Shown: positions 3,975 to 29,148 of the stretch, piece after piece
How positions within the stretch are numbered: the first letter of the stretch is position 1
Layout: each line of letters starts with the position of its first letter
DNA from: a bacterium
GTDB taxonomy: Bacteria; Verrucomicrobiota; Kiritimatiellia; CAIKKV01; CAITUY01
Assembly: GCA_037143175.1 (NCBI GenBank)
Contig: JBAWZF010000030.1
Span: forward strand, 1-33,494
Length of the DNA: 33,494 nucleotides
Direction of reading: 5' to 3'
Program-made: the position numbers and the translations under genes
The notes under the pieces: generated by a model
Told to the model about the DNA's origin: nothing
The model's database searches: none
What the model saw: only the letters and a program-made list of their open reading frames with translations

Positions 3975-4315
3975 CCGCTATATTGTCCAATTCGTGACAC
4001 CGGACTAATACATTCGCTGATTCAGGATGAGCGTCGGTCACTGCCCACTGTTTTCCGCCCACCCACCATCACCACGATCTTTCCCTTTTGTCCCATCAGT
4101 CCCATCTGTCTTCTAAAATCTCAAGTCTGATGTCTGCGGTCTATGGTCTGTGGTCTGTTCTCCTTCTCCTCCCACCCCCAACTGCTTCCCCACTGTAGTA
4201 GCCGCTGCCTGCGGTGAGCGCAGTCGAACCGTCCCCGGCGGCATTCTTTGAGCCTATTTGTAAATAAGTAAACCGAAAAATAGATAATAAACTATATTGC
4301 TTTAATGTCGAAAAT
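3975..4315. other. Intergenic region, no gene seen
   Basis: These 341 bp carry C/T-rich low-complexity DNA, GTCTG repeat copy B, and an AT-rich stretch at about 4255-4300. TTGTAA (4258) and TAGATA/GATAAT (4281-4288) there may be the promoter of the following two-gene module. No convincing reading frame was found. Confidence 0.5.
4117..4157. repeat. GTCTG-rich intergenic repeat, copy B
   Basis: AATCTCAAGTCTGATGTCTG is followed at 4132-4157 by GTCTGCGGTCTATGG and TCTGTGGTCTG. The stretch 4132-4156 is identical over 25 nt to 6178-6202, which defines a dispersed intergenic repeat family. Confidence 0.7.
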
Positions 4316-6931: not shown

Positions 6932-6975
6932 AGTTTTTGACCGTCTAACCATGTAACTATGGAGGGATGAGCATC

Positions 6976-7965: not shown

Positions 7966-7970
7966 CTGGG

Positions 7971-13457: not shown

Positions 13458-16148
13458 ATGGTTATGTCAAATAAAAGCCAAGCATCAACCTTTGATGTTA
13501 TCTCTTCAGAATTATCTGTTAGGGCAATGCATGTCCTTGAGAAATGCGCTATTAAGGACGGGGAAGCCTTTTTGCGGCTTACCAGAGAAGATATGTCGAG
13601 AACTTGGGGCTGTGGCAAAGGAACAATTGCCGAGATTGAAAAAAAACAGTCGAAACTTCGCATGCAAGGCGCGCGCAAAATAGTTCAATTGCCACGTATC
13701 GAAGATTGTTCCGAATCCATCCAGAGCGATGTGTTTCGTGCTATCCAGGGTGAACTCAGTGTCCGAGCCGCAAATGCGATACAATCATTAGGTATTAGCG
13801 ACTTGAAGTCATTCATGAGGCTTAATTTGGATCAACTTTTAGATTGCCGTAATTGTGGGCGCAAATCAGCCTGCGAAATTTTAAAAATTCAAGGTAGTGT
13901 TGCCGAAATGATTCAGCGCTTCGCTGTGAAGTCAGGGGATCCCAACATAAAGGAATTCTCGATTGACGTTGCCAATCCCGTGCCGTGGTTGACTAACTGG
14001 ATTCTTGGCCTTGCTAGGTCGAAACGAGAAGCGAATGCTTTCATGTTTCGGAAAGGTATGCTTGGGTTCGCCCCTATGACGCTTGATTCCGTTGCGCAGC
14101 AAGTTGGCGATGTTACGCGCGAGCGGGTTCGTCAAATGGAGAATTCCATCGAAAAGAGAGCCGCCGCCCGGTATCAACAACTTAGGTTGCGTCCACTGAT
14201 GGAAGAGATAGCGGTCGTCGTTGAACTAAAAGGTGGGATAGCAACTTCTAGAGAATTGGTTAAAGATGTTTTATGTAAAGGAACCGATAGTTCTCAATTT
14301 AGATTCGCAACAGAACTTATCGCTTATTTTGCGACGCTTCAAGTATGGAAGGACACTGGCCTAGTACTTCAAAATGGCAATAATGTCACGAAAGGGGATG
14401 CGTTGCCTCTGATCGAAAATTTGGCGTCTATTATTTGTGAGGTCGCATTAAGCGAGGCAGACGAACGAAGGTCTGATGATCTTTGGAGCATAGAGCGTGA
14501 AAGACTAAAAGGCGTTCTGCAAAAAAAAGCTCATATTCTCAACTGGATACCTGACACCTCCGTTTTGTCAGATGCAATATTTGAATCCGTGCTCGAACGG
14601 TGCAAGAATCGAATCAAAACGCGGACGAAACGGATATATTCTGCGGGTATGTGGCAACTTAGATTTGGCAACATAGTCCATATGATCGATACAATATTGC
14701 GCGATGCGAAAAAGCCTACGCACTATTCCGTAATTGCGGAAGAAGCTGCGAAATGGCGTCCCGGCTTTTCTGTCCGAAATACTTATGCGACTTTGTCCCG
14801 CTGCGAAACTGCGATGCTTTGGGATGTAGGGACGTATGTCCATCGAGACTATGTCGTTTTACCGCTCAGTCTTATTCACGATGTTGAACGCTGGCTACTT
14901 AATGCTCTGAGTGAAGATGTTCCTTACGTTTCAATATATGGCGCATTTGTTCATTTTCATTCTCGGTGCGAACAGGCGTTACTTCCTTCAGAGACCGCGC
15001 TCTACTCATGCCTAAGACAAAGCAATCACAGGAATCTTGTCTATCCGCGGCCACCCAGTGTCTATCTTTACAAAAACTTTAGTGAGAGAGTACCTGTTTC
15101 GCTTGCCCTTACCAACTTCTTGCGTGATGCTGGTGGCCCCGTAACCCAGCAGGAATTGGAGGACTTTGCGTTAAGAAGAATGTTTTTGAAGGATCATCAG
15201 TTCGCCCTTCTATGCCAGCAGTTCACTGATGTAATGCGCACCTCTGATTGGGGCTATCTGCATCTTGATAATTATGAGTATGACTGCGAATCGCTCAGCC
15301 CTGTCATAGAGTATGCACAGCAAGTTCTTTCAGGAGAGGGCCACTGTTCGATTGAAAAAATCTATCGAGATAAATGTGTGACATGCTTGACAGTAGGTAT
15401 TGATGGACCAGTCATGTTGTATTCAGCGTTTCAATGCTTCGCAAATGATGTATTTACCCTCCCATGCTACCCGCAAGTAGCAAAGCGCCATGCAGGCGAA
15501 GATGAGCGTCAGCGCTCAATTACAACACATGTGGTAAATTTTGTCCTCGAAGCTCATCGCCCATGTACCTATGAGTACCTTGATGAACATTTCGTTCAGG
15601 AGCTTGGCTATCAAGAGCAGCATGTTTACGCGATTTACCGAGAGCCGGATTTGTGCATGTATCATTCTGGATGTGTAGTTCACTTTCAAACCTTGGCTTG
15701 GAATGTCGAAAAACAACGTGCGCTAGAAAATGTTGCTGCTGATGCATATTCCTGCTCCATGCAATCTGGGGGTGTCTATTCTCGAGTCTCGCATTTAGTG
15801 GAGTCGCCAGGTCTCCCGGAACTTCCCGATGGTCTTCATTGGTCTAACACGATGGTTGCGGATATGTTGAGAAAGGGGGGGCAGTACGTGGTTCTCGGCA
15901 ACGCGCGGGAGGCATTTCTTCCGAGGAACAATAAATTTCACATACAAAGTCTGGAATCGCTTATTGGAAATATATTGGAACGTGATTGGGGGGGGGCGGC
16001 AAAATTCACAGAATTCGAAGATGCGCTTGTGAAAGCTGGAATAATTATAAAAAGCCTCACGTCCGCCATGCTGGGTTCAGGGGAAATCGTTGTCATAAAG
16101 AACGCTGAAATAATGCTGAAGGAACTATTTGATGCTCAAAGAACTTGA
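13458..16148 (+). CDS. Large DNA-binding protein: two alphaCTD-like HhH domains, sigma-70 region 4-like HTH, HARE-HTH-like domain
   Basis: This 896-aa protein is the first gene of the eight-gene operon. Residues 17-62 and 98-146 are two copies of an RNA-polymerase alphaCTD-like helix-hairpin unit (ELSVRAMHVLEK, then CGKGTIAEIEK; ELSVRAANAIQSLGI, then CGRKSACEILK). Residues 207-236 (MTLDSVAQQVGDVTRERVRQ) match a sigma region 4 HTH. Residues about 406-465 (HMIDTILRDAKKPTHYSVIA) resemble a HARE-HTH domain. The remaining half, rich in cysteine and tyrosine, is unrecognised. No nuclease motif is visible. It may recognise modified DNA or recruit the helicase encoded next, whose start overlaps its stop by 17 nt. 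ATG 13464 is an alternative start; neither has a clear Shine-Dalgarno sequence. Confidence 0.7.
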   Translation: MVMSNKSQASTFDVISSELSVRAMHVLEKCAIKDGEAFLRLTREDMSRTWGCGKGTIAEIEKKQSKLRMQGARKIVQLPRIEDCSESIQSDVFRAIQGELSVRAANAIQSLGISDLKSFMRLNLDQLLDCRNCGRKSACEILKIQGSVAEMIQRFAVKSGDPNIKEFSIDVANPVPWLTNWILGLARSKREANAFMFRKGMLGFAPMTLDSVAQQVGDVTRERVRQMENSIEKRAAARYQQLRLRPLMEEIAVVVELKGGIATSRELVKDVLCKGTDSSQFRFATELIAYFATLQVWKDTGLVLQNGNNVTKGDALPLIENLASIICEVALSEADERRSDDLWSIERERLKGVLQKKAHILNWIPDTSVLSDAIFESVLERCKNRIKTRTKRIYSAGMWQLRFGNIVHMIDTILRDAKKPTHYSVIAEEAAKWRPGFSVRNTYATLSRCETAMLWDVGTYVHRDYVVLPLSLIHDVERWLLNALSEDVPYVSIYGAFVHFHSRCEQALLPSETALYSCLRQSNHRNLVYPRPPSVYLYKNFSERVPVSLALTNFLRDAGGPVTQQELEDFALRRMFLKDHQFALLCQQFTDVMRTSDWGYLHLDNYEYDCESLSPVIEYAQQVLSGEGHCSIEKIYRDKCVTCLTVGIDGPVMLYSAFQCFANDVFTLPCYPQVAKRHAGEDERQRSITTHVVNFVLEAHRPCTYEYLDEHFVQELGYQEQHVYAIYREPDLCMYHSGCVVHFQTLAWNVEKQRALENVAADAYSCSMQSGGVYSRVSHLVESPGLPELPDGLHWSNTMVADMLRKGGQYVVLGNAREAFLPRNNKFHIQSLESLIGNILERDWGGAAKFTEFEDALVKAGIIIKSLTSAMLGSGEIVVIKNAEIMLKELFDAQRT

Positions 16149-18264
16149 TCTTAAACCCGTCTATGACAGTGCTGACTGTGATCTGGTGCGTGATCTCATT
16201 GTTCCGCTGCTTACTAATTCTAGGGATTATTGGCGCGGTGTTGGTTTCTTTACGTCAGGTTGGCTCCGTAGTGCATGCGCGGGGATTGTCCCCCTCGTAA
16301 ATGGCGGCGGGAGAGCTCGTATTGTTACTTCGCCACTGATGCAGAAACGTGACTGGGAAGCACTTCAGGCTGGGGATATCGCAAAGCGCGATACTGTCCT
16401 CCACGAGATTCTTAGAGAGCACGTTGTGGACTTAGAAAAGGCTCTTTCTCAAGATACTTTAAATGCTTTGGCGTGGATGATTGCTGATGGTGTCCTTGAG
16501 CTTAGGTTTGCAATTCCTAGAAAATTCGATATGGGGGGCGACTATCACGATAAAGTTGGTGTTTTTATTGATAAGTTTGAAGATATGGTTGCGATACACG
16601 GCTCTTTTAACGACTCCGCTAAGGGCTCATTGAATGGAGAGGCCTTCTCTGTTTTCAAGTCATGGGAGGAAGGTCAACGCCCATATGTTGAACAGCATCG
16701 TGCACGATTAACCAAACTTTGGCAAAGTGGAAATGCTCAGTTCCAGGTTCTTCTTCTGCCTGAAGCAATTAGGCACGAAATAATTAAGCTACAGACTGCA
16801 GAACGACCCTACAGAGTGCCCGCACAAATAAATCATGTCAGTCTACCTGAGGATGCCGTTCACGAGTTGGGTGTCAAATTATGGCCTTATCAAAGAGATG
16901 CTATCGATGCTTGGATTGATAATGATTTCCGTGGTATTTTTGAAATGGCAACGGGAACAGGCAAAACATTTACAGCTCTTGCAGCGGCTGCCGATCGAAG
17001 AATTGCTATGAAGCAGGTAGCCATTATCATTCTTGTGCCTTATCTTCATCTTCTTGAGCAGTGGCGGCAACATAGTGAGACCTTCGGTTTTTTTCCAATT
17101 ATGTGTAGCGGGAATCATGATCATTGGCCCTCCTCGGTTCGATCCAAAATCCAGGATTACAAACTTGGAATGTTGCCTTCCATTTGTCTTCTTGCCGTAC
17201 ACGAGACAGCTTCTACGAAAAAATTCGCAACAGCAGTCCAAAGTCTCCCCTTAGAGAGTACGTTATTGATTGTTGATGAAGTCCACCGTCTAGGGTCACC
17301 GCACCTGCGTAATGCTTTAATAACAGGCGCTGGAATGCGGTTGGGCTTGTCGGCAACCCCTCGGCGTTGGTATGACGACGAAGGTAGTCAGATGCTTTCG
17401 GATTATTTCTCTGGCGTTTGTTTCGAGTTTTCCCTGAGTGAAGCTATTGGAAAATTCTTAACACCGTATCGGTACATGCCCATTTTGACTGAATTGACCG
17501 CAGATGAACGGGATGAATATGAAGAATTATCCCGCACTATTGCTGTTCTTGCGAGTCGTAATTTTGATAATGATAGTGAGGCTGAAGAGCGGATGAAGCG
17601 CCTGCTTCTTCGTAGGGCTCAGGTTGTGTCCGTTGCTGAGAATAAACTTCCCCTTCTTCTTACAGCATTACGGCGTCAAATTGCTGGTTGCATGGACGCT
17701 GGCACAGAGTTGCGGAATGTGCTTATCTACTGCGCGCCTGGCTCTCATAAGGCTGTTCTTAGTGCGGTTTCAGGGTTGGGTTTGCGTTGCCATGAGTTTG
17801 TTCATGCTGTATCGATGAAGCATAGAGAGACATTAATAGAACAATTTGCAAAGGGCGACGTCCAGGTGCTTGTGGCTATCCATTGTCTTGACGAAGGGGT
17901 GGATATTCCGTCTACTCAAACAGCATATTTTCTTGCCAGTACGACGAATCCTCGGGAATTTATTCAGCGCCGGGGGCGGATCCTGAGAAAATGTGAGGGG
18001 AAAAGCAGCGCCGATGTTTATGATTTTATTGTTGTACCTAATGCTGAGTTTGCCTACCTTCGTCGCGAATCAGATCTTGGATTACTTCGTCGCGAAATGC
18101 CTCGTTTTGCGGAGTTTGCATCCAATGCCTCAAATGAGTTTGAAGCTCGGGCTGTCATAAGAAATATCGTAGATTCCTTTCAGGTGTTGCATCTTCTTGA
18201 TGCCAAGCCTTGGGATATATACCGCCAGGTGATGGAGTCAGTTGAAATTAAGGATAGGAGTTAG
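16132..18264 (+). CDS. PLD-like nuclease domain fused to superfamily 2 helicase
   Basis: The protein is 710 aa from ATG 16132, with AAGGA 8 nt upstream inside the previous gene. The N-terminal ~200 residues form a phospholipase-D-like domain with a single HxK half-site (YHDKVGVF, H139/K141) and the following IHGSFNDSAKG strand. The helicase follows with WPYQ (251-254), Walker A ATGTGKT (273-279), DEVH (382-385), LSATP (406-410), a motif V region VAIHCLDEGVDIPS, and motif VI QRRGR (612-616). This fusion is common in type III-like and other restriction systems, where it translocates on and cleaves unmodified DNA. It is the likely effector of the operon. The 57-aa gene starts 2 nt after the stop. 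Confidence 0.9.
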   Translation: MLKELDLKPVYDSADCDLVRDLIVPLLTNSRDYWRGVGFFTSGWLRSACAGIVPLVNGGGRARIVTSPLMQKRDWEALQAGDIAKRDTVLHEILREHVVDLEKALSQDTLNALAWMIADGVLELRFAIPRKFDMGGDYHDKVGVFIDKFEDMVAIHGSFNDSAKGSLNGEAFSVFKSWEEGQRPYVEQHRARLTKLWQSGNAQFQVLLLPEAIRHEIIKLQTAERPYRVPAQINHVSLPEDAVHELGVKLWPYQRDAIDAWIDNDFRGIFEMATGTGKTFTALAAAADRRIAMKQVAIIILVPYLHLLEQWRQHSETFGFFPIMCSGNHDHWPSSVRSKIQDYKLGMLPSICLLAVHETASTKKFATAVQSLPLESTLLIVDEVHRLGSPHLRNALITGAGMRLGLSATPRRWYDDEGSQMLSDYFSGVCFEFSLSEAIGKFLTPYRYMPILTELTADERDEYEELSRTIAVLASRNFDNDSEAEERMKRLLLRRAQVVSVAENKLPLLLTALRRQIAGCMDAGTELRNVLIYCAPGSHKAVLSAVSGLGLRCHEFVHAVSMKHRETLIEQFAKGDVQVLVAIHCLDEGVDIPSTQTAYFLASTTNPREFIQRRGRILRKCEGKSSADVYDFIVVPNAEFAYLRRESDLGLLRREMPRFAEFASNASNEFEARAVIRNIVDSFQVLHLLDAKPWDIYRQVMESVEIKDRS

Positions 18265-18266
18265 GA

Positions 18267-18440
18267 ATGGTAGAAAAACACCAATTGATCAAGGAGAAAC
18301 TCAAAAAGTATCCCCCTGAAGTTCAAGCCCTTGCTGCAAGAGCATTTGAACTCTCTCAATCCTTGCCGGAATCCGCAGTTGCAGAGCAACTCAAGGGAAT
18401 TGTTCGTCAGGTCATAAAGGATAAGGAGACTCCACGATGA
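18267..18440 (+). CDS. Small operonic protein (57 aa), unknown function
   Basis: The ATG at 18267 follows AGGAG with a 6-nt spacer and lies 2 nt after the helicase stop. The TGA overlaps the next start as ATGA at 18437-18440, so the gene is translationally coupled on both sides, strong evidence that it is real. The product is charged and helical (KEKLKKYPPEVQALAARAFE, then LPESAVAEQLKGIVRQVIKD), with no cysteines or membrane segments. It may be a small adaptor between the helicase and the DndD-like ATPase. No family is recognised. Confidence 0.7.
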   Translation: MVEKHQLIKEKLKKYPPEVQALAARAFELSQSLPESAVAEQLKGIVRQVIKDKETPR

Positions 18441-20476
18441 TTCTCCACAAAATGACCCTCACAAATTTTCGACAATTCAAAGGGTCTCATGCGATTGAAT
18501 TTGCTCGAGGAGAAGGCGGCAATGTGACCGTTATTTTCGGAGAAAATGGACGCGGGAAAACTGGCATTTATCGTGCTTTGCTTTTTTGCCTCTACGGAGA
18601 GAGGCACCTCTCGCAAGACGCACAGGTGGATGATCGTGAACTGTACTTAGTAAATTACCCGGCGATGGAGGCTAATACGGCTAATAAGCCTGTTGCGGGT
18701 AGTGTACGACTTGAATTCGAACATGCAGGGCGTTCATATGAAATTGAACGGTCCATTCTAGGGATGCTGAAAGAGGGAGAGGTGATTCAGGAGCACAATG
18801 GCGTTAGACTTGTAACGCGGGATGAGACTGGAAATGCCGTGACGAGCAGAGATCCCAATCAGATTGCGGATATTATTGGAGGTATTCTTGATCGTGGGTT
18901 AAGGGAATATTTTCTCTTTGATGGGGAAAAAATCGAACGCTTAACTCGGGCTAGTTCAGAGCAACGACGCGAAATCTCCGCCGGTGTTCGAAAGCTTCTA
19001 GACATTGATACACTTGAAACTGCCATGAAGGCAACAGAACGTCTCCGGAAATATCTGGACGCAGAAGTGGAATCACGGGCAACGGGTGAATTGGCTCGTG
19101 TGATCAAACAATTGCGAGAGAATGAGGAGCAATTTGCAGCGCGTAATCCCAGGATTGGTTCAATTGACGAGGAGCTTCAATGCGCGGGGCAGGAGAAAAA
19201 GCAAATTGATTCTGAGTTGGAAAAAATTCGAGAGATCAGGGACCTGCTAACAGCTCGGACTAATATGGAGGAAAGAGCACAAGACCTTGAGCAACAGGTT
19301 GACGCGCTTCTCCTAGATATGAAGAACCGGACAGGGAAAACCTCCCTGCTACTTGTTAGAAAGTCTGCTGAAAAGGTTTTCCGCGACATAGACAAGCGTA
19401 AGCAGAAGCATGAAATACCTTCGGAAATCCGTAGTGACTTGATTGATCGGTTGATCTCAGATGGACGATGCATTTGTGGGGCTAACATCAAGCCGGGAAC
19501 TTCTGAGCATCATAATATCCTCTTGTGGCGAAACCGGACGCCTGATGTTGGGACAGAAGATTCGATGCTTGACCTCTGGCGTTACTTGAGTGGTGTTTGT
19601 AGTCATTATGAGGATATTGGAGTGGCTGCGGAATCGGTACTTCAGAAATACGCTTTAGTCAAAAATGACCTCCAGGTAACGGGGCGCAAGGTAGAGGAAT
19701 TGCGTCAAAAGATTGGATCTTCAGAGCGTGCCGATGCTGCTAATTTAGAGAATCATCGGCATCTGCTTGAACGGAAAATAATTAAGCTGGAGGCGGAACA
19801 AGCTCAAATTAAGGATGAGCTGCTTGTCCTGCAGGATGAGCATTCAACACTTCTGCAACAGCGTAAAGAAATTGAAACGGAAAACGGTATTCGTGATGAG
19901 ATGTCGCGACGTGCTGAACTTGCAGCAATGACAAGTAATGCACTGAAATGTATTCATGAAGAATTCGCAGGGGAGACTCGTGATCGCCTAGGCGCGAGTG
20001 CAACTAAATATTTCCGTGAACTCCTCGACGCTGAAAGTAAACAGACATTGCGAGATGTAGTCGTTGATTCTGACTACAGTATTCAAGTGTATGATAGATG
20101 GCAAAAGCCTTTCTTGGCCAACATTTCAGCAGGTCAGCGACAGATTATGTCTATTGCATTTATTGCGGCGCTTGCAGAGGCTGCGGCCGGTACATCTGTT
20201 CTTGAAATGCCGCTCTTTATGGATACGCCATTTGGTCGACTATCGCATGAACACAGACGTAATCTTTTAGTAAATGTGCCTGGATGGTGTACTCAATGGG
20301 TGTTGCTCGCGACTGATACAGAGTTTGGAAGGTTTGAGGCCAAGATTCTACGCGACACGAATAAGTGGTCTCATTTCTATGTCCTGAAGGGCGCAGGCGC
20401 CGGAAGCACGAAGATCGAATCTGTGGCCGTTGATCAAGCCGATGGCCTGCTGCGTGATGAAGCGGAGGTGGTGTAA
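18437..20476 (+). CDS. DndD-like SMC/Rad50-type ATPase
   Basis: This 679-aa ABC-type ATPase begins MILHKMTLTNFRQFKGSH, typical of DndD/RecF/SMC proteins. Walker A is FGENGRGKTG (34-43). The segment YFLFDGEKIERLT (158-170) is characteristic of DndD. Coiled-coil arms (about 200-330 and 400-500) flank a CxCG hook (C345, C347). The ABC signature is ISAGQRQ (563-569) and Walker B is LFMDTPFG (593-600). In Dnd systems DndD supplies ATP-dependent DNA nicking or remodelling needed for phosphorothioation. AAGGAG 8 nt upstream and the ATGA overlap fix the start. Assignment to the family is firm; the modification it serves here is unknown. Confidence 0.85.
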   Translation: MILHKMTLTNFRQFKGSHAIEFARGEGGNVTVIFGENGRGKTGIYRALLFCLYGERHLSQDAQVDDRELYLVNYPAMEANTANKPVAGSVRLEFEHAGRSYEIERSILGMLKEGEVIQEHNGVRLVTRDETGNAVTSRDPNQIADIIGGILDRGLREYFLFDGEKIERLTRASSEQRREISAGVRKLLDIDTLETAMKATERLRKYLDAEVESRATGELARVIKQLRENEEQFAARNPRIGSIDEELQCAGQEKKQIDSELEKIREIRDLLTARTNMEERAQDLEQQVDALLLDMKNRTGKTSLLLVRKSAEKVFRDIDKRKQKHEIPSEIRSDLIDRLISDGRCICGANIKPGTSEHHNILLWRNRTPDVGTEDSMLDLWRYLSGVCSHYEDIGVAAESVLQKYALVKNDLQVTGRKVEELRQKIGSSERADAANLENHRHLLERKIIKLEAEQAQIKDELLVLQDEHSTLLQQRKEIETENGIRDEMSRRAELAAMTSNALKCIHEEFAGETRDRLGASATKYFRELLDAESKQTLRDVVVDSDYSIQVYDRWQKPFLANISAGQRQIMSIAFIAALAEAAAGTSVLEMPLFMDTPFGRLSHEHRRNLLVNVPGWCTQWVLLATDTEFGRFEAKILRDTNKWSHFYVLKGAGAGSTKIESVAVDQADGLLRDEAEVV

Positions 20477-20477
20477 C

Positions 20478-20921
20478 ATGAATATGGCTCAAGATATTCG
20501 CGTCCGAACGGACCAGCATTATCGGACTCTGTATAATGACTGCCGTAATTTTGTTGCAAAGGATATGCACGAGATTTTTTTTCTTTGCGTCTGTCTCGGC
20601 TATCGGGATGGAAAGCGCAAACCTCTGGGGCGTAGCAAGGAAGACCGTTTTTGGTCGAATACAATTACCCCAGAGGAGTATGCGAGCTTTTATGCGATTA
20701 TGATCGAATCCAATAATATGGATTTCTCTTCTATCTCAGACGATAGATTAGTCATCGCGACAATGGAAGAATACGCTAATGCAGGTATGCAAATCTTGTT
20801 GGATGATGTGCTTGCCGACTATATTTTGAAACGCGGTGATGATCTGCATTTGGATCCAAGTTGCTCGAAAGAACTTCCCAAAGTGCTGCTCGCTCATGTG
20901 TATGAGAAGGCTGGGCAATAA
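20478..20921 (+). CDS. Protein of unknown function (147 aa) between DndD- and DndB-like genes
   Basis: It starts 1 nt after the DndD-like stop with GGAGG in good position. The sequence (RTDQHYRTLYNDCRNFVAKD, then HEIFFLCVCLGYRDGKRKPLG) continues to a C-terminus with EYANAGMQILLDDVLADYIL. It resembles small helical subunits encoded beside DndD, possibly in the role of DndE, but I see no clear DndE motif. There is no catalytic signature. Position and coupling suggest a partner of the ATPase. An 87-bp gap with its own promoter separates it from the next gene. Confidence 0.65.
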   Translation: MNMAQDIRVRTDQHYRTLYNDCRNFVAKDMHEIFFLCVCLGYRDGKRKPLGRSKEDRFWSNTITPEEYASFYAIMIESNNMDFSSISDDRLVIATMEEYANAGMQILLDDVLADYILKRGDDLHLDPSCSKELPKVLLAHVYEKAGQ

Positions 20922-20970
20922 CTTTGGCTGATGGAACTGGTGAAATCAAAGAGGCACGATAATTAGAGCA

Positions 20971-21000
20971 TTGATATCTTGATATAAAATGCAGTATATA
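20971..21000 (+). promoter_or_regulatory. Internal promoter upstream of the DndB-like gene
   Basis: TTGATA (20971-20976) and TATATA (20995-21000) are separated by 18 bp, 8 bp before the ATG. The largest gap in the operon is here (87 bp). The start would be nearly leaderless, consistent with the absence of a Shine-Dalgarno sequence. Confidence 0.5.
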
Positions 21001-21015
21001 TCTGCAATATGCAGA
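21001..21015. promoter_or_regulatory. Inverted repeat across the DndB-like start codon (candidate operator)
   Basis: TCTGCA ATA TGCAGA is a perfect inverted repeat spanning ATG 21009. A third TGCAG half-site lies at 20990-20994, overlapping the spacer of the internal promoter. DndB proteins are reported to act as regulators of dnd operons, so autoregulation through this site is plausible but inferred. Confidence 0.45.
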
Positions 21016-22010
21016 TTAGAAATGCACATTTATCGATATCTGGGATGGTTGGGATGTGTGGCGACCGTGAGGTGTTTGTTGGTTTTGCCCCGGCCAAGAC
21101 CCTCCATTTGGTATCGTTTGCGGATACCTTGGACGAAGACACAGGGATAGGTTACCAGCGTCCACGAGACCGTGGCCACAGTTTGGATTTCAAACGTTAC
21201 ATCAGCACTCCCGGGGCATCGACGATTCCTCTGACGTTTAATTTGCGGCAAGATCTCAAGAAATTTTGGCGGATTGAAAGGGAAGGGGGAAAGGCTATTT
21301 TGTGGATAAACCCTGATGCCGCATGTCTTGCTCAAGTCGACTGCCAACATCGTCTTGGCGAATTGGCTGATTCTGACATCAATCTAGCTTTTATGGCATT
21401 TATTGGCCTCGATCTTCGGGGAGAGATGGCGATGTTCACCATCATCAATAGTAAAGTGCGCGGACTGCAGTCATCCCTTACAGACTTCCACGAAAGCAAC
21501 TTAATCGAAAACCTCGTCCAGGATGCACCGCAACTTTTTCTTGCAAGGAAACTAAATGAAAATTGCGACTCCCCTTGGTTTAAAATGATCCGTTATGGTG
21601 GCGAAACGAGTTCAGGGATGCAACGACGTACGTCACTTAGGATGATGCAAACGGCGATTAGGCACTTATTGACCCGCATTCGGGCAGTGGCTGGCTACAA
21701 TGTAAATGGAGTTTATGATTTGTTGCTCAATTATTGGGGTGCTGTGGCATATGTGTTTGATGCGGAATGGCAGTCGCCGCGTGAACATCTGTTAACGAAG
21801 GGTGTTGGGCTGCATGCTCTCACTGAACTGTTGGGGACTATTGTGCAACGAGAGAAAAGGGTTGATTTGAGTCGTGGCGAACTGATCGAGAAGTTGAAAG
21901 CGCTGAAGGATAATATTGACTGGGGCCGAAAGGGAACTTTCGCTGATGCTGGCGGGAGAAAAGGGGCGTCGGCAGCGCATGAGACCCTTAGAAGGAGTCT
22001 TGGGATATGA
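21009..22010 (+). CDS. DndB-like DGQHR-family protein
   Basis: This 333-aa protein has the DGQHR family core. The signature here reads AQVDCQHRLGEL (residues 109-118), with the usual glycine replaced by C112. It is followed by the conserved FTIINSKVRGLQSSL segment (143-157). Family members (DndB, DpdB-like proteins) accompany DNA phosphorothioation or 7-deazaguanine modification and influence transcription or site choice. The N-terminal MVGMCGDREVFVGFAPAKTL also fits DndB. The TGA overlaps the radical SAM start as ATGA, so the two are translationally coupled. Its own promoter and inverted repeats lie upstream. The family call is good; the biochemical role here is unknown. Confidence 0.75.
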   Translation: MQIRNAHLSISGMVGMCGDREVFVGFAPAKTLHLVSFADTLDEDTGIGYQRPRDRGHSLDFKRYISTPGASTIPLTFNLRQDLKKFWRIEREGGKAILWINPDAACLAQVDCQHRLGELADSDINLAFMAFIGLDLRGEMAMFTIINSKVRGLQSSLTDFHESNLIENLVQDAPQLFLARKLNENCDSPWFKMIRYGGETSSGMQRRTSLRMMQTAIRHLLTRIRAVAGYNVNGVYDLLLNYWGAVAYVFDAEWQSPREHLLTKGVGLHALTELLGTIVQREKRVDLSRGELIEKLKALKDNIDWGRKGTFADAGGRKGASAAHETLRRSLGI

Positions 22011-23614
22011 GAGTTCTTCTTGTTGAACCACAGTACCGGCGTAGTGGTATGCTGAGTGAAGAGTCCGAGATTATTGAAGATAGCGGGGAATTGCCTACGA
22101 AGGTCGTTGCCTCGCAACGCAACGAGGATACTCTTTGGTATCCTCCCCTTGGACTTATGAAGCTGGCGCGCTTCCATAAAAAACGTGGGGATGAAGTCGT
22201 TTTCGTCAGAGGGTGTGATCGGAAGGTCGCGATGGCCGTGGATGCTGTGGAGGGAAAAGGCATGTGGGATCGTGTCTACATCACAACTCTTTTCACATTT
22301 CACTGGGATACCATAGTTGAAACGATCAGGTTTTATAAGGAAGCTGTAGGCGGAACAGCCGGGAAAATATTTGTCGGCGGAATTATGGCCTCGATGATGC
22401 CTGACGACCTATTCGAGGAGACCGGAATTTATCCTGTAACGGGAATAGTTAATACCCCAGGTCAAATCGGTTTGGAGGGGACTGAGGTAATTGATTCACT
22501 CCCGCCTGATTACTCGATCCTTGATCGGCGACAATACGCAATTAACGATACTTATTATGCCTACACTTCGAGAGGTTGTGTAAATAAGTGTGGTTGGTGC
22601 GGTGTTCCCAGGATCGAGCCGACATATCAGGAGTACATCGACATTAAGCCGACAATTAGAACTCTTAGGGATGAATACGGGGACAAGCCAAAGTTGAAGT
22701 TAATGGACAACAATGTGCTCGCATCCGATCAACTTGGGAAAATTATCGATGATCTGGTTGAACTCGGTTATGGCCGCGGTAAATTTACGGAAACTAAACC
22801 AAAAAGAAATCGGGTTGTTGATTTTAATCAAGGGTTGGATGCAAGTTTCTTGGACGATGCGCGCATGAGCCTGCTCGCAAAGCTGAACATCAAGCCAATG
22901 CGAATCGCTTTTGATCGGGCCATTGAGCGAGATGTCTATGTGAAAGCCTTGGGTATTGCTAAAGAGCACGGAGTTCAGGAGTTCTCAAACTACATGCTAT
23001 ATAATTGGCGGGATACCCCGCATGATTTGTATGCGCGGTTGATTGTGAATATTGAGATGAATGAAAAATGGGGAAAGGGGAATAATGGACAGGCAGAAGC
23101 TGAAATATACAGCTACCCGATGAGGTTTGCCCCTATCAATGATGAACTTGGTACGCATGCGAATCGCAAAAGAGATGCCCGTCCCATGGTCGCCAATAGT
23201 GACCGCAATTGGCTGAAAGATGCCGTGTGGACTCCACGCTTTGTCCGGAATATCGAGATCATGAAAGGGGCGGCACACGGCTGCATCTCCCCGACACCAA
23301 CTCTTGCTTGGCGTACTATCGGTCAGACATATGAAGAATTTCTGGCGAACCTTTATATGCCAGAAGAACTATTACGCAACCGGAATAAGCATGAAAATAG
23401 GGTATATAAATATGAACCCAAACGTAAGCCTGGGACGGGGCTGATCGAAGGGTTTCGTTCTTTTGTTTCAAAACTGCTGAAGGTAAACGATTCTAGATTT
23501 CAGATATTTCATGCTGCGGTAAGAGGGAATTCTTCCGAACAGGTTAGGCGTGCGATAGAAATTTGTAACGACAAGGAAATGAAAAAATGGCTCCAATTAT
23601 ACCTCAAGAAATAG
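22007..23614 (+). CDS. Radical SAM enzyme with cobalamin-binding-like N-terminal domain
   Basis: This 535-aa protein has the canonical CxxxCxxC cluster in SRGCVNKCGWCGVP (C191, C195, C198), which binds the [4Fe-4S] cluster that cleaves S-adenosylmethionine. The N-terminal ~160 residues have the B12-binding radical SAM layout (YPPLGLMKLARFHKKRGDEV, then KIFVGGIMASMM), although no DxHxxG lower-ligand motif is visible. The C-terminus is long and basic (KHENRVYKYEPKRKPG). B12-type radical SAM enzymes methylate or rearrange unactivated positions. AAGGAG lies 9 nt upstream, and the gene is coupled to the DndB-like gene before it and overlaps the GHKL gene after it by 28 nt. It is the only catalytic candidate for DNA modification in the operon. 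The substrate is unknown. Confidence 0.88.
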   Translation: MRVLLVEPQYRRSGMLSEESEIIEDSGELPTKVVASQRNEDTLWYPPLGLMKLARFHKKRGDEVVFVRGCDRKVAMAVDAVEGKGMWDRVYITTLFTFHWDTIVETIRFYKEAVGGTAGKIFVGGIMASMMPDDLFEETGIYPVTGIVNTPGQIGLEGTEVIDSLPPDYSILDRRQYAINDTYYAYTSRGCVNKCGWCGVPRIEPTYQEYIDIKPTIRTLRDEYGDKPKLKLMDNNVLASDQLGKIIDDLVELGYGRGKFTETKPKRNRVVDFNQGLDASFLDDARMSLLAKLNIKPMRIAFDRAIERDVYVKALGIAKEHGVQEFSNYMLYNWRDTPHDLYARLIVNIEMNEKWGKGNNGQAEAEIYSYPMRFAPINDELGTHANRKRDARPMVANSDRNWLKDAVWTPRFVRNIEIMKGAAHGCISPTPTLAWRTIGQTYEEFLANLYMPEELLRNRNKHENRVYKYEPKRKPGTGLIEGFRSFVSKLLKVNDSRFQIFHAAVRGNSSEQVRRAIEICNDKEMKKWLQLYLKK

Positions 23615-25128
23615 AAGGTCGACGCAGTATCTCCGCTCATATAGGCCGGCAGATTCTAGATGTGATCACAGCGGGTATGTATTCTGACCCGCGTATGGCG
23701 TTACGAGAATACGTTCAAAATGCAGCGGACTCGATAGACGCCTCAATAGAGGCGGGTGTCTGTCTCGTTCCCGAGGGTTCCATCTCGATAACTTTAGACG
23801 GGAAAACGCGATCCATTTTAGTGGAAGATAATGGATTAGGCATCAAGAACGAGGATGTCGAAACACGCCTGGGTGGGCTGGGATGCAGTTCAAAAGGCGG
23901 AGGGGGGCATCGCGGTTTTAGAGGTATTGGGCGCCTAGGCGGATTAGCCTATTGTGACTTGTTGAGGTTTGAAACAAGAAGCGATGCACGGGAAAAAGTG
24001 GCAGTTATTGAGTGGTCAGGTAAAGCGTTGCGGGAACAGGTTGCAAGCGCTAAGGGGAGTGAGCATGTCGAGGCTGCTATAAGGCGCATAGCCACTATAC
24101 ATTTCAGGGCTGCCGACAAGCATGCAGATCCGGCACATTTCTGCCGTGTCGAAATGGTGAATGTCCATCGGTTTCATGCTGACGTCCTGATGAATATTAA
24201 GGGTTTGCGTGAATATTTATCGCAAATAGTGCCCGCTCCCTATGACAGAAATAAATTTCGATTTGCAGAGAAGATTGAGCGCCATCTTTCGGAGGTTTCA
24301 GGATATCGATCGTACAGTATTACCTTGAACGGAACGCCTATTGTGCGGCCGTTCCAGGAACAGGTGGTCTTGCGGGCGGAACACGAAGATCGAATAATGG
24401 ACGTTAAACTATTAGAGTTAAAAACGCCGGACGGGCGGTTGATCTGTCGGGGCTGGTACGCGATGTCACAGTTTATGTCGGCAATGCCGCCTAATGTAAC
24501 AATGCGCGGGATTCGTGTGCGGCAGGGTAATATTGGGGTCGGTGATGAAGATTTCTTAAAGGCATCATTTATTGAGCCGCGATTTGCGACGTGGCACATT
24601 GGGGAATTACATGTAGGCGAGGGGCTTAAGTTGAATGCCCGCCGCGATGGTTTTGAGGAATCGCCGGAATATGAACTTTTTCTGGAATGGAGTTCAGGCG
24701 TATGCCGACTGTTAAGCTCTTTTTGCCGCCAGTCATCCAAAGAAAGAAGCGATAAGCAATTGCAATTGCGCGTTGGTATGGCAATGGATCGGTTGTTAGA
24801 AAATACATTCTTTTTGGACGAGGATCATAAGATGGCGGCAATAAAGGCCGCGGAGATGCAATTGGCACAACTTAGGAAAATGAACCCGGCTGGGGAAGTC
24901 TCTACGAAACTTGTCAATGACTACGAAGCGCGAGTCTCTGGGTTACGTCAGAAATCGATGTTTTTGTCAGACGTTCTGAACGGTCGATCAATTGGGCGTA
25001 AGAGCGGTGAGCAGGTTCTGACTGAGGTGTGCAAACGTATTCTTGATGCAGTACCCGGTATTGCTGGAACAACCCTTCTCCGCGAGATTGTGGCTCCTTA
25101 CGTTAGGGAGCAGAAGTCCAATTCTTAG
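23587..25128 (+). CDS. GHKL-type ATPase (Hsp90/MORC/MutL-like)
   Basis: This 513-aa protein has the Bergerat fold. The N-box is ALREYVQNAADSID (38-51, catalytic E41 and Mg-binding N45), the G1 box is VEDNGLGI (79-86), and the G2 box is GHRGFRGIGRLGGLAY (107-122). The middle domain resembles the transducer region of Hsp90/MORC proteins. The C-terminal ~150 residues are helical and charged. Such ATPases clamp DNA or act as chaperones, and several defence systems use them. AAGGA lies 8 nt before ATG 23587, inside the radical SAM gene. It ends the operon; the 290 bp downstream to the convergent HD gene hold no gene. Confidence 0.85.
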   Translation: MAPIIPQEIEGRRSISAHIGRQILDVITAGMYSDPRMALREYVQNAADSIDASIEAGVCLVPEGSISITLDGKTRSILVEDNGLGIKNEDVETRLGGLGCSSKGGGGHRGFRGIGRLGGLAYCDLLRFETRSDAREKVAVIEWSGKALREQVASAKGSEHVEAAIRRIATIHFRAADKHADPAHFCRVEMVNVHRFHADVLMNIKGLREYLSQIVPAPYDRNKFRFAEKIERHLSEVSGYRSYSITLNGTPIVRPFQEQVVLRAEHEDRIMDVKLLELKTPDGRLICRGWYAMSQFMSAMPPNVTMRGIRVRQGNIGVGDEDFLKASFIEPRFATWHIGELHVGEGLKLNARRDGFEESPEYELFLEWSSGVCRLLSSFCRQSSKERSDKQLQLRVGMAMDRLLENTFFLDEDHKMAAIKAAEMQLAQLRKMNPAGEVSTKLVNDYEARVSGLRQKSMFLSDVLNGRSIGRKSGEQVLTEVCKRILDAVPGIAGTTLLREIVAPYVREQKSNS

Positions 25129-25418: not shown

Positions 25419-26942
25419 TCACTCATTAGGGGATGCCATTCGCGCTTCAATGGTCATGCGAAAAGTTTGGTCACGGAGAATATTTGTGAATGCATTATAT
25501 TTGATTTGTTCGTTCTTAAGCAGTGTCTCTTCAGCCCATTCTACAAGTACGTGCGCTTGCTTGTTATTGATTTTGTACTGTTTTATTGCGATGCACGCCT
25601 TATCCCCTTTTCGTTTATAATCGTCCCATGTGTCTACATAATGAAGCAAGGAGGCGAGAGGAAATCTTTTGGTGCTGAGAGGGACTAGGTTCCACTTTTT
25701 CCCGTCAGCATGAACTCTCCAGTCGTGCAGCATAATAGCCAGTGCTGCAGGAACCGCATGGGCGAGTACGAAGGGCCTAGATTGGCGCTCGTTTGCTGCT
25801 TTTGCATTTTCACATACTGTTCGCAGGAAATCGATGCTACCGATAACGCCATGCCATTTATATTCATCATATATCCTAATCCATTCGATTTCCAATTTGT
25901 CCCCCGCTTCGTCTGCAAACGCACCCCCATCCCAGTTGCCTGTATCCTTATCACCCATGAAGGCGGCAAGGGAGCCGAGAAGCTTTAGGGCGTTTCGATA
26001 ACCCGGTTTCTTCCAGCGGTTAGGGCTTCCTGCAATGTTAATAGTCATGTCCTCATCGTTTAGTTCATCGCGCAAAATCGCTGTTGCGTATTGTCTTGCC
26101 CCTTCCTTCACGCGTCCAATATCATGAAATATTGAAGTCAGAAGCCACGCGTATTCGATTCGGGTGGTGTGGCATCTATCAGAGTAGCGACGGTGAGCTT
26201 GATCGAAGACATTGTAGAACTTGTTGACGATGGGGCAGCCAGCGAGAAAGACCCGAAATGCATGAATGACATGCTCTGATGAACCTGGGTTTACCAAATC
26301 AAATAACTGTTCGAAGTGAGCCAACTTCATGAATTCTTTTGTAGCACCTGTGAAACTGGGGTGCTGCGCGATCAAACTCTCTATTGTGGAATAGACTAGT
26401 TCAAGGGTTCTCTTCTTGATCTTGCTCTCGTCTGATTTTTGGATTCGCCTGATATTCTTGATAAAATGGTTCAGAGTATCACAAAACATCAGCCTGCTTA
26501 AGCCCTCTGCTTGGTCCAGTATAGCCTTTGGGAAGTAACCTGTCTCATGATCGATAGTCCGAAGCTGTTGGGGGTCAATATCAGTTTTCACAATCGTCGC
26601 TAAACCCAAGTGAGGTTGTAGCGATTTCAGGCCGACCCCCATGTCTCGGCATTCAGTTTCGGTCTCAGGAAAGTCCGCTAGCCCCTTTTCGGTAACGCAA
26701 ACAACTACAACTAGACCTGGCTGCTTTTGTTTCAGAGGAACGACAACATCTCTGAATACAGAGGTTGGAAGCCGACCGCTGAGTTCGATTGCAATTGCCA
26801 GGTATCGCTTCGTTATTTTTGAGCGCAGGAACAAAGCTGGGCACCACTGCGTCTTTCTCGACCATTTGGGAGGAGTAGTCGATTCAAAGTCCGGATAAAG
26901 TCTTCGTATGTATGTCTCGATCTGTTTGATTTGGCTTGCCAT
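25419..26942 (-). CDS. HD-domain protein with unrecognised N-terminal domain
   Basis: In this 507-aa protein, residues 1-120 contain an alpha/beta segment (KITKRYLAIAIELSGRLPTS, then PGLVVVVCVTEKGL) that could be a degenerate nuclease or ligand-binding fold. The middle holds an HD phosphohydrolase core: SSEHVIHAF (H224), LLTSIFHDIGR (H273-D274), and later HAVPAALAIMLHDW and LASLLHYVDTWDDY. HD enzymes hydrolyse phosphomonoesters, nucleotides or cyclic nucleotides. AAGGA 9 nt upstream overlaps the end of the ParB-like gene, 12 nt away, so the two form an operon convergent with the eight-gene cluster. A defence role is inferred from the neighbourhood only. Confidence 0.7.
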   Translation of the reverse strand: MASQIKQIETYIRRLYPDFESTTPPKWSRKTQWCPALFLRSKITKRYLAIAIELSGRLPTSVFRDVVVPLKQKQPGLVVVVCVTEKGLADFPETETECRDMGVGLKSLQPHLGLATIVKTDIDPQQLRTIDHETGYFPKAILDQAEGLSRLMFCDTLNHFIKNIRRIQKSDESKIKKRTLELVYSTIESLIAQHPSFTGATKEFMKLAHFEQLFDLVNPGSSEHVIHAFRVFLAGCPIVNKFYNVFDQAHRRYSDRCHTTRIEYAWLLTSIFHDIGRVKEGARQYATAILRDELNDEDMTINIAGSPNRWKKPGYRNALKLLGSLAAFMGDKDTGNWDGGAFADEAGDKLEIEWIRIYDEYKWHGVIGSIDFLRTVCENAKAANERQSRPFVLAHAVPAALAIMLHDWRVHADGKKWNLVPLSTKRFPLASLLHYVDTWDDYKRKGDKACIAIKQYKINNKQAHVLVEWAEETLLKNEQIKYNAFTNILRDQTFRMTIEARMASPNE

Positions 26943-26954
26943 AAGAACAGGTCC

Positions 26955-28007
26955 TTATTCAAGAATGGTCTTATGGGTCCGACGCTTTTTCGATATAAGT
27001 GTTCTCAGAGCATCTAATCGGCTGTATAGTTCCTTTGTCTTGGCGGGGTAACTAAGCATGCCTAGAGGGCCGGGCAGTGTTTGCAGCATGTGCTCAAGGG
27101 ATTCTGCCTTTTCGATAGAGCGGTCAAGCAGGTCGAGTAATCCCGTTTGTGACTCAGGGAACTTAAGGTCGAATCGCCCCAAAACCGACTCGGCTGTCAT
27201 ATCATCGGTATTCAGAAAATCACGAAGAAGTTTTTCGGCAAATGTCTTTTCGTTAAGTCCCTGTGCTCTCGCTATAACCGGTACTATGTTCTCCATTAAA
27301 GCGCGAGTTCCTGATAGTACCTTTCGCTTCGCCTTCCGGAGGAGGATATTCCGAAGTTCATGCACTCCAAATTCTTTGAATAGATCTGGAAAATGTTGCT
27401 TAATAGGCTCTATAACGCTCACCTCAAACTGCACCAAAAAGCTCCATGAGAGTAGTTTGTTATCCACATCGTCGAGCACGCTGTCAGGGTATTTGGCGGC
27501 TTGAAGTAACGAGCTGAGTTGAGTTTTTGTGTAACCTGTGAGCGCCTGCAACTCGATGAAAGCTCCCTTTTGAAATAAGTCCGAAGAGTTTTGAGTCGAC
27601 TCTTTGAGGATGAGTTTTAATGCGCGAGTCTGAGCCGTACGCCCCCACTGCTTGCGGAGCATATGGATATGGAAGGCTTGAATGAGATCTTTTACCGATG
27701 GCTCGCGGTTGGCAACATGCGCGGGAATTTTTGCACGGTTTGTCTTCAGTGCAGCACGTAGTCTTCTTTCGCCGTCTATGAGGCTGTAGCGTTTCCCGCT
27801 GGCTTCGTCGTTTTGGCGGCAGATCACGATGGGAACTAGCACTCCGAAGCGGTAGACCGAATCTACAAGCTGGTTGAATTCTGGGTCTGCGTTGATTTGT
27901 TCCGCAGATTCACCTCGTGGGTTCTCGTTGTTGAATGCCACGTCTTTTGGATCCACGGAGATAAGTTTGTATTCTTGAGTTTTCACCGTTTTCTTTTGTT
28001 TGGGCAT
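26955..28007 (-). CDS. ParB/Srx-fold protein (ParB-like nuclease domain)
   Basis: This 350-aa protein has an N-terminal ParB-like domain: ISVDPKDVAFNNENPRGESA, then LVDSVYRFGVLVPIVIC, then YSLIDGERRLRAA (DGERR at 78-82), which is the nucleotide-binding box of ParB/Noc/Srx proteins. A central HTH-like region (ALTGYTKTQLSSLLQAAKYP) and a helical C-terminus follow. No ParA is present, so chromosome partition is unlikely; accessory ParB-like proteins often act as DNA-loading clamps or nucleases in islands. AAGGTG lies 5 nt before the ATG. A TATAAT box and a 12-bp tandem repeat lie about 140 bp upstream. Confidence 0.85.
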   Translation of the reverse strand: MPKQKKTVKTQEYKLISVDPKDVAFNNENPRGESAEQINADPEFNQLVDSVYRFGVLVPIVICRQNDEASGKRYSLIDGERRLRAALKTNRAKIPAHVANREPSVKDLIQAFHIHMLRKQWGRTAQTRALKLILKESTQNSSDLFQKGAFIELQALTGYTKTQLSSLLQAAKYPDSVLDDVDNKLLSWSFLVQFEVSVIEPIKQHFPDLFKEFGVHELRNILLRKAKRKVLSGTRALMENIVPVIARAQGLNEKTFAEKLLRDFLNTDDMTAESVLGRFDLKFPESQTGLLDLLDRSIEKAESLEHMLQTLPGPLGMLSYPAKTKELYSRLDALRTLISKKRRTHKTILE

Positions 28008-28314: not shown

Positions 28315-29148
28315 CTAGGCGATCAGCCGTTCACGGTGATATTGCAGGAAAGATTGGGATGGAGTGAAGGTGAGGGGGAGGGTAACCGCATGGTTTTCGA
28401 ACGGTTGGAACTGCTGCTGAAATGCCTTGTTGGTGTGGTGATCCTTGAGTTGAGGACTGAAGATCAGGTGGAATTGCTCGTCCAGAGAAATCAGGTGGGC
28501 GTCAAAGGCCGCATCAAAGGTTGCCGATAGGCAGAGCCCATTCGTCGGGTTCAACCGGTTGTCCTTATCTTCTGCCCAGCCTACGATATGGCTCGCTCGA
28601 AGGACCTGCGGGATGTCCAGCCCTGTGATACAACATCGTCCATCGTAAACCTGTAGGATCATCTTTCGGAAAAAGTGCTGGTTCACCCGGGTTTTAACCT
28701 CGCGGATGGCCTCCTTGCCGATCACCCCCGTGTAGTCCAATTTCTGTTTGCTTAGTTGTTTGACTAAGTCATCGGCAGAAATGCCTGGCTGTTTGAAGAC
28801 ATCCCAAAGCTTAGTTTCGTGGCGAGTTGTGATTAGGAACTCTCTGAAACTATTGAGCGCAGCGGAACAGTAGCGATCGCGCCAGTAACTGATCGGCTTT
28901 TCACCGCCGAATATGCCTGACTCCCCAAGATTCTGTTGTTCTAGTACATATTCATAGAGTTCACCAATCCGGGTGATCGTGGTAATGCCCCAGATATTGC
29001 AGCAGTCCTTAAACAGGCTGGTTGGCTTGGCCAGTATTGGGCCTAGCAAGTCCAGTGCCCGAACATAGGAACTGGCTTTACCGCTCCCGGCGGTATTGGT
29101 CTCCTCCATAAATTCGGTAAAGCGGTCGCGGGGTGTCATGGTGCTCAT
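28315..29148 (-). CDS. HNH endonuclease (HNH_2 type)
   Basis: This 277-aa protein has a C-terminal HNH nuclease core: YDGRCCITGLDIP (C172, C173), LRASHIVGWAEDKDN (H187), then LNPTNGLCLSATFDAAFDAHL (N203). This is the arrangement of HNH_2-type restriction nucleases. The N-terminal ~150 residues are unrecognised and probably give DNA specificity. The gene follows the second HNH gene by 46 nt on the same strand. A TATAAT (29152-29147) overlaps ATG 29148. If used, the transcript would begin close to ATG 29139 (MTPRDRF), giving a leaderless mRNA and a 274-aa protein. Confidence 0.85.
   Translation of the reverse strand: MSTMTPRDRFTEFMEETNTAGSGKASSYVRALDLLGPILAKPTSLFKDCCNIWGITTITRIGELYEYVLEQQNLGESGIFGGEKPISYWRDRYCSAALNSFREFLITTRHETKLWDVFKQPGISADDLVKQLSKQKLDYTGVIGKEAIREVKTRVNQHFFRKMILQVYDGRCCITGLDIPQVLRASHIVGWAEDKDNRLNPTNGLCLSATFDAAFDAHLISLDEQFHLIFSPQLKDHHTNKAFQQQFQPFENHAVTLPLTFTPSQSFLQYHRERLIA

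Follow-up and report, generated by a model that had tools for sequence, protein, structure and literature searches.

PbeABCD was described as an antiviral cassette linked to phosphorothioation (Xiong 2019, PMC6459918). It was later placed among the CxC ABC-ATPase-DndE systems, its other parts being a nuclease-helicase of the HKD type and a small protein (Kaur 2024, PMC10853773). In the earlier survey, 320 of 553 PbeAC pairs had no dndCD nearby, and 155 of these 320 had candidate base-modifying genes within 10 kb (PMC6459918). The partners given for Pbe in the sections of both papers that deal with it are phosphorothioation or methylases only. The main text of PMC10853773 does not mention B12 or GHKL, and it refers to radical SAM twice, both times in connection with DndC. 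Passages on radical S-adenosylmethionine (SAM) enzymes in other papers concern a gene flanking a Pseudomonas defence hotspot (PMC10250203), viperins (PMC12926258) and EVE contexts (PMC7641849); the mentions in PMC3226654 were also checked. Among the papers listed by searches of the open-access literature, preprints and subscription papers not included, none links a radical SAM enzyme to Pbe, DISARM or DGQHR proteins in its title or abstract. Here we analyse a 33,494-nucleotide stretch of a Kiritimatiellia bacterium (GenBank assembly GCA_037143175.1, contig JBAWZF010000030.1; the window). An eight-gene cluster in this window joins a PbeABCD set to a radical SAM enzyme of predicted B12-type fold (rSAM), a GHKL ATPase and a DGQHR protein. 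It probably encodes a PbeABCD-type restriction machine in which self-marking is the task of rSAM, with the GHKL ATPase and the DGQHR protein, rather than of phosphorothioation or a classical methyltransferase.

All eight genes lie on the forward strand (Table 1), and their order and junctions are as described in a sequence-only reading of the window. They overlap or abut at nearly every junction; 87 bp lie between gene 5 and gene 6, and the PbeA gene has an alternative in-frame TTG at 16129. The GC content of the cluster is 0.46-0.48 versus 0.50-0.61 leftward; rightward, the low GC extends to about 28 kb. The window is part of a 107-contig assembly that is 95% complete. Window proteins were scanned with Pfam, NCBIfam and PADLOC.

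Table 1. Genes of the cluster at 13458-25128 of the window, with assignment and main evidence.
Gene	Coordinates	Strand	Assignment	Evidence
1	13458..16148	+	Probable DNA-binding accessory protein, 896 amino acids	Two RNA polymerase alpha C-terminal domain-type helix-hairpin-helix (HhH) stretches and a sigma-70 region-4-like helix-turn-helix (HTH)
2	16132..18264	+	PbeA, HKD (PLD-type) nuclease and SF2 helicase	PADLOC PbeA 1.9e-213
3	18267..18440	+	PbeB-sized protein, 57 amino acids	Size and position between PbeA and PbeC only
4	18437..20476	+	PbeC, CxC-type ABC ATPase	PADLOC PbeC 8.4e-167; AAA_23/DndD-like
5	20478..20921	+	PbeD/DndE-like small protein	Weak profile matches and position
6	21009..22010	+	DGQHR/DndB-family protein, motif DCQHR	NCBIfam and Pfam profiles
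7	22007..23614	+	B12-type radical SAM enzyme (rSAM), proposed modification enzyme	Profile, motif and predicted fold
8	23587..25128	+	Hsp90-like GHKL ATPase, rSAM partner	HATPase Pfam; likeness to HtpG and TRAP1

The sequence-only reading knew of no named system with this gene set. This does not hold for genes 2-5, which by their profile matches are a PbeABCD set, i.e. the already-known restriction half (PMC6459918, PMC10853773); gene 5 is a weak match and gene 3 is assigned by position. PbeA has a ResIII/helicase Pfam match, a dnd_restrict_1 match (2.4e-135, under that model's cut-off) and the motifs HDKVGVFID (HKD half-motif), GSFN, Walker A and DEVH. It shares 38% identity with PbeA of a Ruegeria plasmid. 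PbeC has a Walker A motif, a CIC zinc hook at position 345, a signature motif and DTP. Gene 3 has no family match in Pfam, NCBIfam or PADLOC. The matches of gene 5 to TIGR04062 (dnd_assoc_4; 2.1e-4, below cut-off) and PADLOC PbeD (0.0043) are both weak. The new part is rSAM, often followed by GHKL and sometimes accompanied by DGQHR.

The closest described system is DndCDEA-PbeABCD. Like it, the window has PbeA, a PbeB-sized gene, PbeC and a PbeD-like gene in the same order; unlike it, the window lacks DndC and has the radical SAM and GHKL genes instead. The Ruegeria plasmid with Dnd-Pbe has almost the order of the window: dndCDE and a desulfurase, a sigma/HTH gene, PbeABCD and a DGQHR gene.

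rSAM occupies the slot of the modification enzyme, as had been proposed from the sequence. The DndC model has no match in the window's genome. In 22 genomes including the host, none exceeded the cut-off and another genome gave one partial match of 20.7 bits, in a search without a positive control in which no control genome passed the cut-off; BLAST with an annotated DndC does detect DndC in the PbeA loci L207-L209. SspABCD is another phosphorothioation module able to accompany Pbe. The window's genome has no SspD-like protein; CysD and CysH are the sole members of the PAPS-reductase family there. On Rhizobium and Sphingomonadaceae plasmids (L224, L225), PbeABCD-like genes have as neighbour an SspABCD-like set, named from annotation, of a desulfurase, DUF4007, an ATPase and a PAPS-reductase-family protein. 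The DGQHR protein of the window resembles DpdB of the Dpd system. Unlike Dpd, the window's genome has one TGT, located on another contig with a full-length match of 516 bits, and no second one that could be DpdA. The single TGT is presumably the housekeeping Tgt, as judged without a DpdA model. A motif scan of the window revealed no DNA methyltransferase, with no genome-wide survey made of these enzymes or of cysteine desulfurases. After these searches, a hidden partner in the form of DndC, SspD, DpdA or a methyltransferase nearby was rejected.

Relatives of rSAM reveal its usual company. A contig scan gave at least 524 confirmed relatives; the best 80 of these were taken with flanks of at most 10 kb. 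The 1338 open reading frames (ORFs) of the window and the 80 loci were clustered and the cluster representatives annotated. Within the phylum, an rSAM match at E<=0.001 is present in 11 of 387 genomes, the window's own and partial or weak ones included. In the best 80 loci, GHKL occurs 54 times and DGQHR 22 times. rSAM is repeatedly paired with restriction genes: PbeA or PbeC in 10 loci, DISARM (DrmA/DrmB) in 13, an SNF2 set (the helicase, in most cases with ParB-like and small proteins) in 23 and a fourth set (c19-c20) in four. These four sets cover 49 of the 80 loci. Exactly one set is present in 48 of the 49; two occur only in L062, whose PbeA is doubtful (branch length 9.09).

The link between rSAM and the restriction genes is operonic. 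The nearest Pbe gene is on the rSAM strand in all 11 loci (window included), with a gap of <=150 bp in six. For DISARM, same strand and a gap of <=150 bp were found in 12 of 12 loci with a called rSAM ORF. Among the 80 loci, the rSAM ORF of L067 is uncalled though its reading frame is open. The SNF2 set is on the same strand in 20 of 23 loci and within 150 bp in 11 of 23. GHKL shares the strand of rSAM and lies <=150 bp from it in 54 of 55 cases, and it adjoins rSAM in many loci without Pbe. It goes with rSAM and not, as the sequence-only reading had suggested, with the restriction side. GHKL is present in 10 of the 13 DISARM-rSAM loci.

A neighbourhood search had been suggested for co-occurrence of these genes. 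rSAM was found with Pbe genes in 10 of the 80 relatives; the exact eight-gene set was seen in the window only, among the loci examined. Genome G273 (L027) carries rSAM, GHKL, gene 1, PbeA, PbeC and PbeD in a different order and without the DGQHR gene. Because the set recurs there, the grouping is not due to chance. Three loci (L039, L057, L072) have the run gene 1-PbeA-PbeB-PbeC-PbeD-rSAM but lack both GHKL and DGQHR within the DNA examined, thus these two are not needed for the pairing of Pbe with rSAM. A small ORF like gene 3 occurs in five of the 80 relatives. L039 and L040 have an identical rSAM and the same gene run although their records carry the names of two different phyla; contamination is suggested, or else a transfer in the very recent past. 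L210 has a more distant rSAM (HHalign probability 99.4), the gene of which overlaps that of PbeA; L211 has a distant rSAM by BLAST only (8e-13). A reverse transcriptase with an HNH domain (2141-4006) lies a few kb upstream of the rSAM-PbeA-PbeC set of L210.

PbeA-based searches covered 9/9 Verrucomicrobiota PbeA loci and 14 of 28 plasmid PbeA records. In these 23 loci, rSAM was never seen in the company of DndC, SspD or a DNA methyltransferase. rSAM is present in the window and G273, and distant rSAMs in L210 and L211. DndC was found in seven loci (L207-L209, L197, L200, L222, L226), an Ssp-like set in two (L224, L225) and a DNA methyltransferase in five (L198, L220, L221, L223, L201); no modification gene was seen in L205 (at a contig end), L206, L199, L227 and L228. 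Methyltransferases were sought by a motif rule, not a profile; the rule recovered 7/7 annotated DNA methyltransferases. Plasmids were judged by annotation: an NPPY ORF in L228 is DprA and an ORF in L199 lies over a cas3 gene, and both were left uncounted. Counted were dam in L201, about 5 kb from PbeA and beside insertion sequence elements, and the methyltransferases of L220, more than 6 kb from PbeA. The usual modification genes are absent from Pbe-rSAM loci: after curation, 0/11 have another modification gene versus 14/19 PbeA loci without rSAM (Fisher test, p 8.7e-5), in a comparison that, like the Fisher tests below, ignores relatedness, mixes taxa and uses loci from different searches, some of them short. 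Neither arm includes the distant-rSAM loci L210 and L211. Without the doubtful L062 and the copy L040, the numbers are 0/9 versus 14/19 (p 5.8e-4). When both arms are scored by the same motif rule and its hits are taken at face value, they are 1/11 versus 15/19 (p 3.8e-4); the single case is a false hit in gene 1 of the window. Neighbourhoods without rSAM, which the sequence-only reading had named as a refuting finding, do occur, but 14 of these 19 have one of the other modification genes, and this looks like substitution. rSAM appears to stand in for the other modification genes at Pbe loci.

Pbe could also be an orphan that uses a methyltransferase elsewhere in the genome, with rSAM unrelated to marking. 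Among the 14 Pbe loci viewed on plasmids, three have no modification gene nearby, and the survey for methyltransferases covered the window and not the genome. Yet its strand and, in 6 of 11 loci, gaps of at most 150 bp bind rSAM to Pbe, much like DndC or methyltransferases elsewhere, and an orphan Pbe is hardly probable.

The contrast is weaker for DISARM, where the same rSAM family adjoins DrmA/DrmB. The window itself has no Drm match among 20 PADLOC-scanned proteins, and no DrmA over 1e-40 was found in the genome. The motif scan of the window and the 80 loci flagged 10 ORFs, seven of which were judged false by eye, gene 1 included. The other three are DNA methyltransferase-like, in L099 (+7 kb), L100 (-4 kb) and L104 (-5 kb); only L099 is a DISARM locus. 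The motif hits in DISARM-rSAM loci, L068 (SPPW, +6.5 kb) and L099, are both 6-7 kb away. If L068 is judged false, a methyltransferase is present in 1/13 loci with rSAM versus 8/14 DrmA loci without it (p 0.013), with curation in the rSAM arm only. The arm without rSAM consists of L216-L218, L229, L230 and L245-L253, and two of 83 plasmid DrmA records were viewed.

Trees support repeated exchange of partners. In a quick tree of 79 rSAMs, the Pbe association (10 rows) needs five changes, at least four of them forced by starred branches. DISARM (12 rows) needs three changes, all three forced, and the SNF2 set (22 rows) 15, 13 of them forced; the tree has four long-branch rows, where the stars are less safe. 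A careful tree was made of 31 PbeAs. The 10 rSAM-linked ones need four changes, three of them forced and one owed to the doubtful L062. Eight rSAM-linked PbeAs (L039 and L040 included) form a starred set with L227, and L031 joins L210 and L211. The rSAM-linked clade spans records labelled with five phyla. In a quick tree of 29 PbeAs, without L062 and L040 and with distant rSAMs counted, rSAM needs three changes, two of them forced. The Dnd label needs six changes in this tree, five of them forced. Due to these repeated changes, each half has switched partners on more than one occasion, as modules would.

These data also bear on the view that rSAM, GHKL and DGQHR form a separate system that often inserts near defence genes. 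The window is a defence island, with PD-Lambda-1 at 31512-33353 and PDC-S23 at 7932-8963, and DGQHR-rSAM-GHKL exists without any of the four restriction sets. Such clustering does not explain the order and overlap with the restriction operon, the single restriction set in 48 of 49 loci, the absence of the normal modification genes or the rSAM-linked PbeA clade in five labelled phyla. It is quite unlikely.

What rSAM may do was approached with its predicted structure. The Pfam matches to B12-binding (1.8e-5) and Radical_SAM (9.5e-4) are both under the Pfam cut-off, and PADLOC has none. A CxxxCxxC motif is located at 191-198 (CVNKCGWC). Of six cysteines in total, only those of this triad are invariant in 50 aligned sequences. 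An AlphaFold2 model based on 50 sequences (pLDDT 87.8, pTM 0.87) has an N-terminal Rossmann domain and a radical SAM barrel. Top VIA-align matches are AprD4 (Z 16.5, 361 residues, 3.8 Å) and MgmA (Z 16.5, 322 residues, 3.6 Å), followed by MtaB (14.9), TsrM (14.6), MiaB (14.6), RimO (14.0), OxsB (13.9) and CysS (13.1). The top two-domain enzymes cover both domains, so that the B12-binding region is covered by the fold match. The enzyme is, by its model, a member of the radical SAM superfamily with a fold nearest to B12-type enzymes. It shares the predicted two-domain fold with MgmA, TsrM, OxsB, CysS and AprD4 at 11-16% identity. Record titles name TsrM, OxsB and several lower-ranked structures as cobalamin enzymes. 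MgmA and CysS use cobalamin; AprD4 does not. A profile search of solved-structure sequences gave one weak match for rSAM, 9ccb (0.016).

A viperin-like role would make rSAM an independent effector, producing an antiviral small molecule or a modified nucleotide and kept near restriction genes. Prokaryotic viperins are radical SAM antiviral enzymes, according to the passages on them in PMC12926258, and 31 of the 80 rSAM loci have none of the four restriction sets. The fold match is much weaker, with Z 9.5 over 190 residues versus 16.5 over 322-361 residues, and is limited to the barrel. An independent effector is also not expected to replace DndC, SspD and methyltransferases, or to abut the last DISARM gene in 12 of 12 loci. 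The viperin-like reading is disfavoured and has a small chance of being right.

Alternatively, rSAM may modify a protein of the complex, such as the small PbeB or a helicase subunit, or a tRNA, and thereby switch restriction on or off. The near folds include MgmA, a protein glutamine methylase, and MiaB and RimO, which act on tRNA or protein, and an Hsp90-like partner suits protein handling. The Pbe, DrmAB and SNF2/ParB sets share no obvious protein substrate. MiaB and RimO have three further cysteines for an auxiliary cluster, which are missing in rSAM, where the radical SAM triad alone is invariant. A methylthiotransferase of the MiaB/RimO type is disfavoured for the same reason. A protein or tRNA target seems unlikely overall.

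The GHKL protein has the GHKL motifs and Hsp90-like domains. Its family profile matches HtpG at 5.8e-13. The model (pLDDT 84.5) matches TRAP1 in Foldseek at 3.7e-17, spanning the protein with TM 0.44 and a root mean square deviation of 17.8; therefore, its domains are set differently from those of Hsp90/TRAP1. The DGQHR protein exceeds the cut-off of TIGR03187 (126 bits) and matches DGQHR at 2.1e-36 and Pfam DndB at 2.4e-7. The NCBIfam model of DpdB gives 6.3e-21, below cut-off, and that of PADLOC 7.2e-20. NCBIfam assigns DGQHR proteins to the DNA-modification families Dnd and Dpd. The profile search of solved-structure sequences gave no match for the DGQHR protein. Both proteins may be helpers in the window.

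Taken together, the best reading of rSAM-GHKL(-DGQHR) is an interchangeable modification module that would write a non-phosphorothioate mark. rSAM would alter host DNA, e.g. by adding a methyl group to a base, sugar or phosphate or by changing one of these through other radical chemistry. The site may be chosen by the DGQHR protein and/or a PbeC-PbeD scanner, and the GHKL ATPase may remodel or clamp the complex. PbeABCD, with its SF2 translocase and HKD nuclease, would stop the replication of unmarked DNA or cut it. Chances are about even that this is a portable module with a new DNA mark made by B12-type chemistry, which was adopted by at least three machines (Pbe, DISARM and SNF2/ParB) and replaced phosphorothioation or methylation there. 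Prokaryotic restriction would then have a third class of self-marking chemistry. If rSAM marks DNA, a new DNA modification would be spread across many bacterial phyla, culturable strains included. Two such strains are Novosphingobium aromaticivorans DSM 12444, which has an rSAM relative (the DGQHR-rSAM-GHKL neighbourhood was seen in the pNL1 record of this species), and [Clostridium] ultunense DSM 10521, with rSAM and DISARM (L036). The module is a candidate for part of the unexplained PbeAC pairs and for some DISARM loci without methyltransferase.

Several points weigh against the reading as a DNA-marking module, besides the limits of the Fisher tests. DNA as the substrate of rSAM, and the chemistry, are inferred. 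The predicted fold does not name the substrate, since enzymes with near folds include AprD4, MgmA and MiaB, whose targets are a sugar, a protein and tRNA, respectively. The trio is not obligate: GHKL is present in three and DGQHR in none of the 10 Pbe-rSAM relatives, several of which are on short contigs. Of the 31 rSAM loci without any of the four restriction sets, 24 have GHKL or DGQHR. An empty slot alone proves little, as 5/19 PbeA loci without rSAM also have no modification gene. At face value, the DISARM contrast is borderline, with 2/13 loci with rSAM versus 8/14 without it (p 0.046). In Verrucomicrobiota, rSAM is found in 0/9 DISARM loci and a methyltransferase motif in only 4/9.

Gene 1 is probably a DNA-binding accessory protein. 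It matches Pfam PF03118 (9.6e-14), RpoD_Cterm (2.3e-6) and, weakly, PglW, and its family is present in seven of the 10 Pbe-rSAM relatives. The sequence-only reading had called it a sigma/HARE protein; Pfam gave no HARE match at E<0.1. In the Ruegeria Pbe locus, a protein with similar domains is placed like gene 1, the likeness being confined to the HhH and sigma stretches. These are short (E 0.001), and identity of gene 1 with the Ruegeria sigma/HTH gene beside PbeA was rejected.

The SNF2 set (L029, L107 and 22 other loci) comprises two ParB-like proteins, a small protein and an SNF2 helicase that resembles DpdE and ZorD. It is also encoded on a 66-kb viral contig, and we know of no name for it. 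The fourth set (L044, L079, L096, L101) comprises c19 and c20 of about 380 and about 550 amino acids, c20 being weakly HerA/mad8-like, with GHKL and rSAM; it is a possible fourth pairing. On the alphaproteobacterial plasmids L202, L203 and L204, a PIN-domain protein and a second ATP-binding protein recur beside DGQHR-rSAM-GHKL. In the Bacteroides phage LoVEphage (L235), a short and distant radical SAM gene has genes for cytosine and adenine methyltransferases and for PAPS reductase as neighbours. Marinitoga camini virus 1 has a distant rSAM homolog near HerA. Both cases are suggestive; neither was used as evidence.

Other genes of the window include further defence genes. The PD-Lambda-1-like protein (forward strand, PADLOC 8.2e-87) has T5orf172 and DUF4041 domains and belongs to the same island. 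A WYL/WCX-domain regulator (6967-7965, forward strand) precedes the PDC-S23 candidate defence protein (5.8e-134), relatives of which are near other rSAM genes in L024 and L026. Convergent with the cluster, 25419-28007 on the reverse strand codes for a 507-amino-acid protein without any match and a ParB_N protein. Two HNH endonuclease genes follow at 28315-29148 and 29195-30163.

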